Source: Syntrophorhabdaceae bacterium PtaU1.Bin034 (lineage in GTDB: Bacteria; Desulfobacterota_G; Syntrophorhabdia; Syntrophorhabdales; WCHB1-27). Taken from it: a stretch of DNA of 61,944 nucleotides. The DNA is taken from assembly GCA_002067405.1 (NCBI GenBank), contig MVRP01000005.1, positions 1-61,944 of the forward strand, given 5' to 3'. The notes beneath the pieces are model-generated. The model was not told the DNA's origin. It saw nothing but the letters and a program-made list of their open reading frames with translations, and did no database searches. Positions 35,689-39,494 of the stretch are shown piece after piece; the first letter of the stretch is position 1, and every line of letters begins with the position of its first letter. Position numbers and translations under genes: made by a program.

Positions 35689-36897
35689 ATGCCGGTATAC
35701 GAATGGGAAGGCAGGAGTCCGAACGGTGAGTTCAAGAAAGGTACCTCGAGCGCAGACTCCCCCGAACAACTGAGGGCGATGCTAAGAAGGGACGGAACTA
35801 TCCTTACCAAGACAACTGAAAAAAGGGAAAAAAAGAAGCTCGGCGGCGGCAGTCTGCAAAAGAAGGTCAAAAAGGCGCAGGTAGGCATTTTCACGAGGCA
35901 GCTCGCGACAATGATCAACTCAGGGCTACCCCTTGTGCAGTCCCTGGACATCCTCTCGAACCAGCTCGATAACCCGACCCTGAGAGGAATAACGGCTGCG
36001 ATGAAGGAAAAGATAGAGGGCGGCTCCCGGTTCGCGGAGGCGCTGCGCGACTATCCCAAGTGTTTTGACGAGCTTTATGTGAGTCTGGTCGTTGCCGGCG
36101 AGGAAGGAGGCATGCTGGATACCGTCCTTGGCCGGCTCTCTGCCTATATCGAAAAGACGGAGAAACTGAAGAAGAAGGTGAAGACTGCCCTTATCTATCC
36201 CTCAAGTATTGTCGTTGTGGCGATCATAGTAGTGCTCGTGCTGCTGCTTTTCGTGATTCCGGTGTTTGAAGGTATGTTCTCGAGTTTCGGAAAAGCGCTT
36301 CCGGCGCCGACTCAGATAGTAATAAATCTGAGCAAGTTTGTAAAGGCGACCATTTATTATATCGCTGCGGCCTTAATCGTCGGAATTTTCCTCCTCAGGA
36401 GGTATTACAGAACGTATAACGGGAAGAAGGTAATCGACAAGCTCGCCCTGAAAATACCGGTTATAGGCATGTTGCTCCAGAAGGCGTCACTTGCGAGGGT
36501 TACAAGAACACTTTCGACGCTTCTCTCCAGCGGCGTTTCAATCCTTGAAAGTCTTTCCATAGTGGCAAAGACCGCGGGCAACCGGGTCATCGAAGAGGCC
36601 CTGTTCAAAGCTCGCGTAGATATCAGTGAAGGTAGGAGCATTTCTGAGCCATTAAAGGAAAGCGGCGTCTTTCCTCCCATGACGGTTCAAATGATCCAGG
36701 TAGGCGAGTCGACCGGCGCGTTGGATAGCATGCTCAACAAGGTAGCAGATTTTTACGAAGACGATGTAGACAACACCGTGGGAAACCTTACTTCCCTGCT
36801 CGAACCGGTGCTCATGGTATTCCTTGGTGTCGTCCTCGGCGGGCTGATCATTGCCATGTACCTGCCGATCTTTCAGTTGGGAAGCGTCGTGGGATAG
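35689..36897 (+). CDS. PilC/GspF-type inner-membrane platform protein
   Basis: The 402-residue protein has the duplicated T2SSF domain of PilC/GspF: the first copy about 70-190 (FTRQLATMINSGLPL, VVAGEEGGML) and the second about 270-395 (RVTRTLSTLLSSGVSI, MIQVGESTGALDSML), each followed by membrane segments, three in all. The start MPVYEWEGRSPNGE is typical of PilC. It forms the inner-membrane platform that works with a PilB-type ATPase such as the one at 25.6 kb. A strong AGGAGG site precedes the ATG. It sits 35 bases after the protease gene, while pilT, pilin and pilMNOPQ genes are absent from the window. Confidence 0.92.
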   Translation: MPVYEWEGRSPNGEFKKGTSSADSPEQLRAMLRRDGTILTKTTEKREKKKLGGGSLQKKVKKAQVGIFTRQLATMINSGLPLVQSLDILSNQLDNPTLRGITAAMKEKIEGGSRFAEALRDYPKCFDELYVSLVVAGEEGGMLDTVLGRLSAYIEKTEKLKKKVKTALIYPSSIVVVAIIVVLVLLLFVIPVFEGMFSSFGKALPAPTQIVINLSKFVKATIYYIAAALIVGIFLLRRYYRTYNGKKVIDKLALKIPVIGMLLQKASLARVTRTLSTLLSSGVSILESLSIVAKTAGNRVIEEALFKARVDISEGRSISEPLKESGVFPPMTVQMIQVGESTGALDSMLNKVADFYEDDVDNTVGNLTSLLEPVLMVFLGVVLGGLIIAMYLPIFQLGSVVG

Positions 36898-36910: not shown

Positions 36911-36939
36911 TTGACAATGGCACGAAATTCCCGTAAATT
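36911..36939 (+). promoter_or_regulatory. Promoter of the aromatic-leader attenuator
   Basis: TTGACA (36911-36916) is followed after 17 bases by TAAATT (36934-36939). The expected transcription start is about 36946, which is the first base of the leader-peptide ATG. Confidence 0.78.
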
Positions 36940-36945
36940 ACAGTC

Positions 36946-37017
36946 ATGAACTGTATGAAGGCCAATTTCTATTTTTATTGCTTTTTTAGCACGCACCTGT
37001 GTACCTTGGTGCTCTGA
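36946..37017 (+). CDS. Phe/Tyr-rich leader peptide of an attenuator
   Basis: A 23-codon frame starts at ATG 36946 (or the in-frame ATG at 36955) and stops at TGA 37015-37017. Codons 8-14 read NFYFYCFF in part: six of seven residues from codon 8 to 14 are Phe or Tyr, the classic signature of a leader peptide that senses charged aromatic tRNA. There is no ribosome binding site, and the predicted transcription start falls at the first codon, so translation would be leaderless. It is followed by alternative stems and a terminator, then by two aminotransferase genes. It has too little sequence for homology support. Confidence 0.7.
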   Translation: MNCMKANFYFYCFFSTHLCTLVL

Positions 37018-37107
37018 GAGGGGCATAAAGGGCCATGGGTGCAAACCGAACCCATGGCCCTTAAGTTTTCGTAAGGGCCGTGGAGATTTCACGGCCCTTA
37101 TTTTTTT
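37001..37107 (+). promoter_or_regulatory. Transcription attenuator with mutually exclusive stems
   Basis: Five segments can pair in competing ways. A (gtaccttgg, 37001-37009) pairs with B (37033-37042) with one bulge. B (37030-37040, GGGCCATGGGT) pairs perfectly with C (37050-37060, ACCCATGGCCC). C (ggccctta, 37056-37063) pairs with D (taagggcc, 37072-37079). D (37072-37082) pairs with E (37090-37100) and is followed by seven T (37101-37107), a rho-independent terminator. The leader stop codon lies between A and B. A ribosome stalled at the Phe/Tyr codons would leave A free, favouring A:B and C:D (read-through). One that reaches the stop would cover A, favouring B:C and D:E (termination). Confidence 0.78.
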
Positions 37108-37116
37108 GGAGGACTC

Positions 37117-38307
37117 ATGATCTTGTCAAGCGGCATAAAAAAGTTGGTTATGGATCAGGAAGGCTGGACCAGAAAGATGTTCGAAGCAGGCATCCAGATG
37201 AAGAAAGACTATGGAGTGGAGAATGTTTATGATTTCTCTCTCGGAAATCCAGAAATAGAACCTCCGCCGGAACTGAAAGATAGGCTTGTCGAGTCTCTCA
37301 ACAACCCGGTTCCTGGAATGCATAGATACATGCCGAACAACGGATACGAACAGGTAAGAGAAGAAATTGCTGAATTCCTGAGAGAACGTTTTGGCCTTCC
37401 TTTTACCTCCTTGCACATCTTTATGACAGTCGGATGTGCCGGGGGTCTCAATATGCTCTTCAAAGCAATGCTGAACAGGGGTGACGAGGTGATTGTGCCG
37501 AACCCGTTCTTCTGGGAGTTTAAGAATTACATAGAGAACTTCGGGGGAATCCCGAAAATGGTGGACACCAAAGAGGATTTCCAACTAGACATAGCGGGCA
37601 TTCAGCGGGCGGTGACGGCAAAAACCAAAGCGGTTCTCATCAACAGTCCCAATAACCCGACCGGTGTGGTCTATACCGAGGAGAGCCTGAAAGAACTGGC
37701 CGACCTGCTTTACGGGGAAAGAAAGAAGGGGAGGGAGATTTACATTCTTGCCGATGAGGCATACCGGAAACTCGTTTACGAAGATCGCCCTTTGCCGAAC
37801 CTGTTCAGTATTTACGACCTCGCCATTTCCGTCACATCTCATTCCAAAGATCTTGCCCTTCCTGGGGAGAGGATTGGGTATATCGCCATTTCTCCCCGGA
37901 TACCTGAAACCGAGCTTCTTGTTTCCGGCCTTATGATAGCGATCCGAGCCCTTGGTTTTGTGAATGCCCCGGCGTTGTTTCAGCGAGTGGTCGGAGAGTT
38001 CCAGAGAAATTCGGTTAGTATAGCAAATTATCAGCAGAAGAGGGATGTCCTTTACGAAACCTTGATGGAAGCAGGATTCGAGTGTGTGAAACCAACCGGG
38101 GCATTCTATATGTTTCCGAAGTCGCCGGTCGAGGACGAGGTGGAATTCGTGTTCAAGATGCAGCAAGAGGAGCGAATACTGGTTGTTCCGGGACGTGGCT
38201 TCGGCAAGAAGGGTTATTTTAGGATTGCTTACTGTGTCCCCATGGACACCATAATGAAGGCGAGACCCGGTTTCCTGAGGGCGGGCAAACGATATTTGGG
38301 GAGGTAG
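37117..38307 (+). CDS. Class I PLP-dependent aminotransferase, probably aromatic-specific
   Basis: The 396-residue enzyme is a fold-type I aminotransferase. It has the substrate-side segment FSLGNPEIEPP near residue 41, NNPTG (residues 176-180), DEAYRKLVYE near 209, the PLP-binding Lys in SHSKDLALPGERIGY (near 243) and the C-terminal substrate Arg in FRIAYCV. The ATG at 37117 follows GGAGG, which lies directly after the attenuator's U-tract. The Phe/Tyr-rich leader upstream suggests that it works on phenylalanine or tyrosine and their keto acids; that is inference from regulation, since sequence alone does not fix the substrate. A close paralogue follows after two bases. Confidence 0.9.
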   Translation: MILSSGIKKLVMDQEGWTRKMFEAGIQMKKDYGVENVYDFSLGNPEIEPPPELKDRLVESLNNPVPGMHRYMPNNGYEQVREEIAEFLRERFGLPFTSLHIFMTVGCAGGLNMLFKAMLNRGDEVIVPNPFFWEFKNYIENFGGIPKMVDTKEDFQLDIAGIQRAVTAKTKAVLINSPNNPTGVVYTEESLKELADLLYGERKKGREIYILADEAYRKLVYEDRPLPNLFSIYDLAISVTSHSKDLALPGERIGYIAISPRIPETELLVSGLMIAIRALGFVNAPALFQRVVGEFQRNSVSIANYQQKRDVLYETLMEAGFECVKPTGAFYMFPKSPVEDEVEFVFKMQQEERILVVPGRGFGKKGYFRIAYCVPMDTIMKARPGFLRAGKRYLGR

Positions 38308-38309
38308 AC

Positions 38310-39494
38310 ATGTCGACATCAAACAGAATCCTGAAGCTGATGGAAAATTCATCTTGGATTAGGGCCATGTTCGAAGAGGGTGAAAGATTGAAGAAGATAC
38401 ATGGGCCTGAGAACATCTTTGAATTTACTTTGGGGAACCCTATTGCCGAGCCTCCCGCCGAGCTTAAAGAAGAGCTTCGCGAGATAGTATCAAGAGAAGC
38501 CGCCGGCATGTACAGATACATGTCCAACAACGGGTACGAGCAGGTCCGTGAAGAGATAGCTGCTTTCCACAGGGAAAATTCTCATCTCCCCTTCACAAGC
38601 AATCATATTATTATGACCGTGGGGTCTGCGGGAGGGATAAATGTAACCCTGAAGTCGATACTTGATCCCGGTGACGAAGTAATAGTTCTTTCGCCGTTTT
38701 TCGTCGAATTTATGTTTTACATTGACAATCATGACGGGATCATGAAACTCGTTGAGACAACAGAGGATTTTCATCTTGATATAGAGGCGATAGAGCGGGC
38801 GATCAACAAAAGGACCAAGGCCATCATTATAAACTCGCCCAACAACCCCACGGGAGCTGTTTACCATGAGAAAGAGCTGAAGCAACTTGCCGCCCTGTTC
38901 AAGAAGAAGAAGGAAGAGGGACAGCGTATGTTTATCATCTCCGATGAGGCATACCGAAAAATCCTTTATGATGGGATGAGGTTGCCCGACGTCTTCAATC
39001 TTTACGATGACACTATCGCCGTCTATTCGCATTCGAAGGATCTCGGGCTTGCCGGAGAGCGAATCGGCTATATTGCAGTTTCACCGCTGATCGAGAATGA
39101 TGCGACTTTGATCAACGCAATGATCTTCGCTAACAGGACGCTCGGCTTTATCAATGCTCCGGGCCTGATGCAGCGTGTTGTGGGCAGGTTTCAAAAGAAC
39201 AGCGTGGATGTTTCCAGTTACCAGGAGAAACGGGATATGATGTACAACATCCTCGTTGAGTCAGGTTTCGAAGTGAATCTGCCCCAGGGTACTTTCTATA
39301 TCTTTCCGAAATCCCCTATCGAGGACGATATTGAATTCATCAGGATTATGCAGCAACATCGAATCCTTGCAGTCCCGGGTATCGGATTCGGAAGAAGGGG
39401 GTATTTCCGCATAGCCTACTGTGTAGAGAAGGATTTGATCGAAAGGTCGAGGGAGGCTTTTCTGGAGGTAGGAAACCTGTTCTTCGGGAAATAG
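38310..39494 (+). CDS. Class I PLP-dependent aminotransferase, paralogue of the preceding gene
   Basis: This 394-residue protein is clearly related along its whole length to the preceding gene (for example MYRYMSNNGYEQVREEI against MHRYMPNNGYEQVREEI). It keeps NSPNNPTG, DEAYRKILYD, the PLP Lys in SHSKDLGLAGERIGY and the Arg in FRIAYCV. It begins two bases after its neighbour's stop with GGGGAGG overlapping that stop, so the pair is one transcript under the attenuator. A tandem duplication with later divergence is the likely origin. Substrate ranges may differ, for instance aromatic against another amino acid. Confidence 0.9.
   Translation: MSTSNRILKLMENSSWIRAMFEEGERLKKIHGPENIFEFTLGNPIAEPPAELKEELREIVSREAAGMYRYMSNNGYEQVREEIAAFHRENSHLPFTSNHIIMTVGSAGGINVTLKSILDPGDEVIVLSPFFVEFMFYIDNHDGIMKLVETTEDFHLDIEAIERAINKRTKAIIINSPNNPTGAVYHEKELKQLAALFKKKKEEGQRMFIISDEAYRKILYDGMRLPDVFNLYDDTIAVYSHSKDLGLAGERIGYIAVSPLIENDATLINAMIFANRTLGFINAPGLMQRVVGRFQKNSVDVSSYQEKRDMMYNILVESGFEVNLPQGTFYIFPKSPIEDDIEFIRIMQQHRILAVPGIGFGRRGYFRIAYCVEKDLIERSREAFLEVGNLFFGK

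Follow-up and report, generated by a model that had tools for sequence, protein, structure and literature searches.

A predicted two-hairpin attenuator reading Phe and Tyr codons ahead of tandem aminotransferase genes, and related switches before other amino-acid genes

The enterobacterial pheA/pheL and pheST systems are leader attenuators, and Rfam includes a Phe leader family. T-box regulation uses a single RNA architecture in front of many amino-acid genes, the specifier codon differing from gene to gene. For the trp and his attenuators of E. coli and Salmonella, the part of the account cited here describes ribosome and polymerase as racing each other, places the regulatory codons in region I and has hairpins that exclude one another (PMC1183508). 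Actinobacterial trp attenuators, in the sections of the report cited here, carry short, absolutely conserved complementary triples in terminator and antiterminator, and one genome has a candidate attenuator at each of two trp operons; in these sections no switch is described that is common to genes of different amino acids (PMC1262725).

The locus compared here with these systems lies in a 61,944-nt stretch of DNA from Syntrophorhabdaceae bacterium PtaU1.Bin034 (contig MVRP01000005.1), hereafter the window, in which a leader precedes two tandem aminotransferase genes. Like pheA/pheL and pheST, it combines a leader ORF with Phe codons, a competing antiterminator and terminator, and a downstream gene predicted to act in Phe metabolism. 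Unlike them, its sensor codons mix Phe and Tyr, its five segments form two hairpins in a chain, and it stands before aminotransferase genes in another bacterial group; a search of 4227 Rfam 15 families, known leader attenuators included, gave no match at gathering score (best sub-threshold match sX14, 29.3 bits versus 80). With the trp and his attenuators it would share the race, the regulatory codons and the mutually exclusive hairpins, but those systems, as presented in the cited part of that account, use four regions (II:III versus III:IV), whereas here A:B plus C:D is set against B:C plus D:E. A further likeness, to the actinobacterial trp attenuators as far as the cited sections describe them, is that terminator and antiterminator have conserved complementary triples in common. 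The mechanism, ribosome-mediated attenuation, is of a known kind; the shared, tandem-hairpin, codon-swappable family of attenuators appears new, no report of it being present among the literature matches listed, and a mention in Vitreschak et al. 2004 on proteobacterial attenuators being possible. In our view the leader very probably controls transcription by ribosome-mediated attenuation and senses the charging of tRNA-Phe and tRNA-Tyr. An attenuator had been proposed earlier in a sequence-only reading of the window, and this proved largely right, as 58 leaders share the codons, the segments and the covarying stems.

The gene at 35689-36897, which we take to encode a pilus/secretion F-like protein, ends just upstream of a sigma-70-type promoter on the plus strand (36911-36939). 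The promoter scan and the comparison of relatives bore out this promoter as first described, with TTGACA at 36911-36916 and TAAATT at 36934-36939 separated by 17 nt and matching the consensus at 10 of 12 positions. Two promoter-like sites were present in 601 bp against 0.6 expected, the second one on the minus strand. The promoter is followed on the same strand by a leader ORF of 23 codons (36946-37017, MNCMKANFYFYCFFSTHLCTLVL), and its codons 8-14 (36967-36987), TTC TAT TTT TAT TGC TTT TTT, encode F Y F Y C F F, so that the earlier count of six Phe or Tyr codons in seven was correct. No other ORF of 8-60 codons in the window reached at least six of seven. Since 3 of 40 first-order Markov surrogates also gave at least one comparable ORF (mean 0.075), the run taken alone is suggestive and not decisive. 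The distance from the -35 hexamer to the leader ATG is 35 nt, which places the ATG at the expected transcription start, as judged from the hexamer spacing, and the ORF is therefore probably translated leaderless. As a point against the attenuator, no Shine-Dalgarno was found in the sequence upstream of this ATG. The first aminotransferase gene is preceded by a Shine-Dalgarno-like GGAGG at 37108-37112 on the plus strand.

Downstream of the sensor codons, five segments on the plus strand can pair with alternative neighbours. Segment A (36993-37001, GCACCTGTG) pairs with 37034-37042 of segment B to give antiterminator 1, and a weakly conserved hairpin, P1 (37009-37026, formed by 37009-37015 and 37020-37026), lies between A and B with the leader stop codon (37015-37017) at its loop. 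Segment B (37028-37042) can pair either with A or, through 37028-37040, with segment C. Segment C (37050-37063) in turn pairs with B through 37050-37062, forming hairpin T1, which is strong and is the counterpart of the first terminator in relatives, or with segment D through 37052-37063, forming the 12-bp antiterminator 2. Segment D (37071-37084) takes C as its partner through 37072-37083, or takes E in the intrinsic terminator T2, which is completed by 37088-37107 (E at 37088-37101, T run at 37101-37107). The stem of T2 (37071-37084/37088-37101) has 14 bp and a three-base loop followed by seven T, and its fold was 6.5 sd better than shuffles. An 11-bp stem had been described previously, and this is the core of the 14-bp stem; the seven T and the nine bases between the T run and the aminotransferase ATG at 37117 stood as described. 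By count alone, terminator-like sites in 601 bp are within chance (one versus 0.7 expected). As judged from the sequence only, then, an intrinsic terminator separates the first structural gene from a leader ORF that has a run of codons for few amino acids.

When charged Phe- and Tyr-tRNA are plentiful, the ribosome on the leader would reach the stop codon and cover P1 and part of A, upon which B:C and then D:E would form and RNA polymerase would halt in vivo at the T run 37101-37107. When starvation makes either charged tRNA scarce, the ribosome would stall in the F/Y run, A would stay free and A:B would form; C, thereby freed, would capture D through C:D, E would be left without a partner, and the tandem aminotransferase genes would be transcribed. 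The predicted switch would thus set A:B followed by C:D, for read-through, against B:C followed by D:E, for termination.

A search for related loci returned 37 of them. L001-L027 were labelled Syntrophorhabdus, Syntrophorhabdales, Syntrophaceae, Deltaproteobacteria and others, once Spirochaetes, and the closest relative, L001, was 82% identical. Among the homologues L028-L037, from Chloroflexi/Dehalococcoidia, one Eubacterium and one Allomuricauda, no such leader was seen by eye in the upstream stretch inspected. Two orders were surveyed, one around G003, the genome of L001 (46 genomes), and one around G008 (17 genomes). The 97 loci with an aminotransferase match, the window included, were reduced to 62 distinct ones (L054 and L070 were too short), and with L016, L023, L088 and L089 lacking a full leader at a contig end, 58 distinct complete leaders remained, again including the window. 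Alignment A1 holds 51 of these 58; L008, L027, L073, L076, L077 and L082, which by eye are near others, and L065, which is without terminator 2, were left out. Sensor and spacing counts cover 57 leaders, as L012 gave no ORF through A. The 58 leaders share the promoter, the aromatic run and the interlocking segments A-E, and in 58/58 a TTGAC -35 element lies 112-140 nt before B. The distance from the -35 element to the leader ATG is 31-46 nt in the window's order, mostly 35-38 nt, which again coincides with the expected transcription start, and 44-54 nt in the G008 group; for the former group, the position of the ATG points to leaderless translation.

The conservation of the aromatic codons among relatives, a check that the sequence-only reading had called for, was borne out. 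With the window included, the run holds at least five F/Y codons in seven in 55/57 leaders and at least six in 50/57, and the remaining two, L019 and L075, have four of seven. Since F/Y content had been the criterion for picking the ORF, the other two frames served as a control, and they averaged 2.4 and 2.2 F/Y against 6.3 in frame. The runs use TTT 206 times, TTC 73, TAT 84 and TAC 71. The last F/Y codon precedes A by 8 nt in 39 of the 57 leaders and by 7 nt in another 14 (53/57 together), the window being an exception with its last Phe codon 5 nt before A, and of the 56 leaders with a stop codon in range, 28 have it at A+22 and 24 within A itself (A+7/8). With usual values for the ribosome footprint, this spacing would let a stalled ribosome leave the antiterminator free and a ribosome at the stop codon block it. 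A ribosome-read switch would require just this kind of almost constant register between sensor codons and stem. A further reading, compatible with attenuation, is a trans-acting product, either the leader peptide or the leader RNA released at the terminator; the part of a study on Sinorhizobium cited here reports action in trans for peTrpL (PMC7298713). The strong sequence conservation of the leaders and this precedent speak for it; outside the F/Y run and the part overlapping A, however, the peptide varies in length and sequence, and we consider such an action unlikely.

In its first version the attenuator had one terminator hairpin and its segment A was placed at 37001-37009; we now regard this version as very unlikely. 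The predicted antiterminator does gain four pairs through pairing of the tetranucleotide CCUU (37004-37007) with 37028-37031, and in the window T2 alone has a good T tract. The conserved segment, however, is GCACC(C/T), found in the window at 36993-37001, so that 37001-37009 is only accessory, and a T tract follows the first hairpin as well in nearly all relatives, the eight bases after the B:C core including five or more T in 48/51 leaders. The stall geometry had to be revised accordingly: a ribosome at the last Phe codon, which had been thought to end just before A, would cover part of the revised segment, and stalls at earlier sensor codons would leave it free, given a usual ribosome footprint. 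Given the T tract in 48/51 leaders, most relatives seem to carry a relay of two terminators. It is missing after B:C in the window (CCTTAAGT), L001 and L017; the window's lineage seems to have lost the T tract of T1 and kept the second terminator, the first hairpin now guarding C. In L065, B:C is the sole terminator hairpin, without a second terminator, and B lies 49 nt before the gene; its aminotransferase match (G038) contains one TAA.

The two states of the proposed attenuator were followed by folding the window RNA at increasing length, with usual values for the ribosome edges. With RNA free from 36989, as for a stalled ribosome, A:B plus P1 gave -30.3 kcal/mol before C emerges, B:C was the optimum for 3' ends from 37058 to 37076, until D appears, and A:B plus C:D was optimal at every tested 3' end between 37080 and 37094, reaching -52.4 kcal/mol at 37086-37094. 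At full length the terminated fold was the optimum (-60.3 kcal/mol) even in the stalled case. Because the terminated fold wins once E is out, read-through must be kinetic. With RNA free from 37028, as for a ribosome at the stop codon, B:C and D:E formed (-48.4 kcal/mol). Across alignment A1, A:B plus C:D was optimal just before E emerges in all 51 leaders, and the at-stop fold was B:C plus D:E in 39/51, with a different optimum in the other 12.

Compensatory changes in the stems, the second check named at the outset, were likewise found among the 51 aligned leaders. In B:C plus D:E, 97.4% of cells are paired and 70 both-side changes were counted against 23.6 in shuffles; for A:B plus P1 plus C:D the corresponding values are 83.6% and 74 against 26.9. 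An antiterminator that excludes the terminator is thus kept by compensatory change, most weakly for C:D alone, which has 92.9% of cells paired, little variation and weak covariation (its outer two pairs gave shuffle p of 0.069 and 0.017 in the window's group). P1 alone is weak, with 61.0% of cells paired. Within the window's group A:B has few compensatory changes, and its clearest change, G-C in 36 rows to U-A in 14, may be a single event because it follows the two groups. For an RNA stem, the core CCATGGG/CCCATGG varies unusually little; near-invariance of B is expected since one segment must pair with two partners, and the cited sections on actinobacterial and proteobacterial attenuators likewise note near-invariant shared segments (PMC1262725). 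The same data bear on the possibility that the hairpins are plain terminators of read-through from the upstream gene, with the F/Y ORF incidental. That the gene 35689-36897 ends just upstream, and that a single terminator-like site is within the 0.7 expected, would suit it, but a promoter sits between that gene and the hairpins, the in-frame F/Y codons are conserved in 55/57 leaders at a nearly fixed spacing to A, and A:B covaries, which leaves it highly improbable.

Both genes behind the predicted attenuator, AT1 (37117-38307, plus strand), a class I/II aminotransferase, and AT2 (38310-39494, plus strand), which starts 2 nt after it, pass the NCBIfam cut-off of PRK06836, so that the tandem aminotransferases were correctly named, and they presumably form one operon. 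PRK06836 is an aminotransferase family without assigned substrate, and the closest solved sequence to AT1, 3ele, is named only 'Amino Transferase'. In the order of G003, AT1 has a match at E <= 1e-100 in 44/46 genomes, with two matches in 43/46; in that of G008 a match is present in 16/17 genomes, with one gene in all but one. Going by the sensor codons, AT1 and AT2 are likely Phe/Tyr aminotransferases. The role in aromatic amino-acid metabolism proposed for them is strengthened, because the same switch, with matching codons, precedes DAHP synthase-aroB, pheA and trpB-like genes.

This wider occurrence was traced with a covariance model, R1, built from the aminotransferase leaders only. At E <= 0.01, R1 matched 46/46 genomes of the G003 order and 16/17 of the G008 order. 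At E <= 1e-6 it matched 61 of 395 genomes of the phylum, labelled Deltaproteobacteria or Thermodesulfobacteriota, with 30 of the 61 in the two orders, and a search repeated from another centre gave the same tally. Antisense matches to the near-palindromic stems reach 2.3e-10, so weak R1 scores alone prove little. One such match, on the minus strand of the window (37010-37142, 33.2 bits), was set aside as a symmetry artefact of these stems. Outside the two orders, 31 of the 33 matches listed at E <= 1e-6, from 31 genomes, have an aromatic (29) or Leu (2) run, and L251 and L262 have no clear run. Of the 91 family loci that were read, those within the two orders being taken from among the matches listed, only these two and L196 are without a clear amino-acid run, L243 having just two Trp codons; loci within the two orders carry Tyr, Trp, Phe or mixed runs.

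In most family cases the leader codons match the downstream gene. Another PLP-dependent aminotransferase, below NCBIfam cut-offs, has a switch with six to eight Tyr codons, and DAHP synthase-aroB operons (L172 and L171 pass NCBIfam cut-offs) have leaders with Phe, Tyr and Trp codons. Prephenate dehydratase (pheA) is also found behind the switch, L178 passing the NCBIfam cut-off. Named by reading alone, trpB-like genes follow leaders with three or four Trp codons, whose A:B pair differs, DAHP synthase-trpE-like operons have leaders with Trp codons, and archaeal-type 2-amino-3,7-dideoxyheptulosonate synthase-like genes and further PRK06836-like aminotransferases also stand behind the switch. When 58 other family loci were checked automatically for an A-to-B duplex, 34 gave shuffle p <= 0.05; the test is noisy, and in many non-passing loci a post-run hairpin or the second terminator had been picked as T1. 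Where the chosen hairpin starts 30-56 nt after the run, 33/40 passed by hand count, and L197, L202, L167, L217, L190, L196 and L198 did not. A sensor other than the ribosome, namely a ligand or a protein acting on the RNA as in a riboswitch, a T-box or a complex with an RNA-binding protein, could draw on the unusually invariant CCATGGG/CCCATGG core, but that invariance is expected if each segment pairs with two neighbours, no Rfam family reaches gathering score, and the sensor codons follow the downstream gene, whereas the RNA itself remains similar, which makes this reading barely credible.

For the ribosome-read attenuator, we give about even chances to the proposal that one ancestral A-E two-hairpin cassette was copied through the amino-acid genes of the phylum and acquired new sensor codons on the way (Phe/Tyr, Tyr, Trp, Phe/Tyr/Trp, Phe or Leu); it would then play the part of a T-box, read by the ribosome, and would predict substrates for uncharacterised aminotransferases and transporters. 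Like T-box regulons, the family would place one architecture before many genes with the codon swapped; a T-box binds tRNA directly, whereas the sensor here would be the translating ribosome. If so, this would be a sequence-defined attenuator family in a large group of mostly uncultured anaerobes, a doubled terminator could yield a relay of antiterminators, and the leader codons would hint at the substrates of genes whose sequence does not reveal their function, namely of PRK06836 aminotransferases, of a metallo-beta-lactamase-like protein and of TRAP and ABC transporters.

Several further genes behind such leaders were assigned by reading. A metallo-beta-lactamase-like protein stands behind a nearly pure Phe run in L176, L204 and L227, which suggests a role in Phe metabolism; the L176 protein had no NCBIfam match at 1e-40. 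TRAP-type solute-binding genes follow a Trp-type leader in L201, L239, L242 and L243, and uptake of Trp or a related compound is predicted for them. Branched-chain-type ABC transporter substrate-binding genes follow Phe/Tyr leaders in L211 and L228, with a predicted function in aromatic amino-acid uptake. In L217 and L253, leuA-like genes have Leu-rich leaders with the same hairpin style, and from these two loci the switch family may extend beyond aromatic amino acids. An unnamed 527 aa protein was found behind Phe/Tyr leaders in L197, L202 and L226, and in L197 it is followed by an apparent NDP-forming acyl-CoA synthetase.
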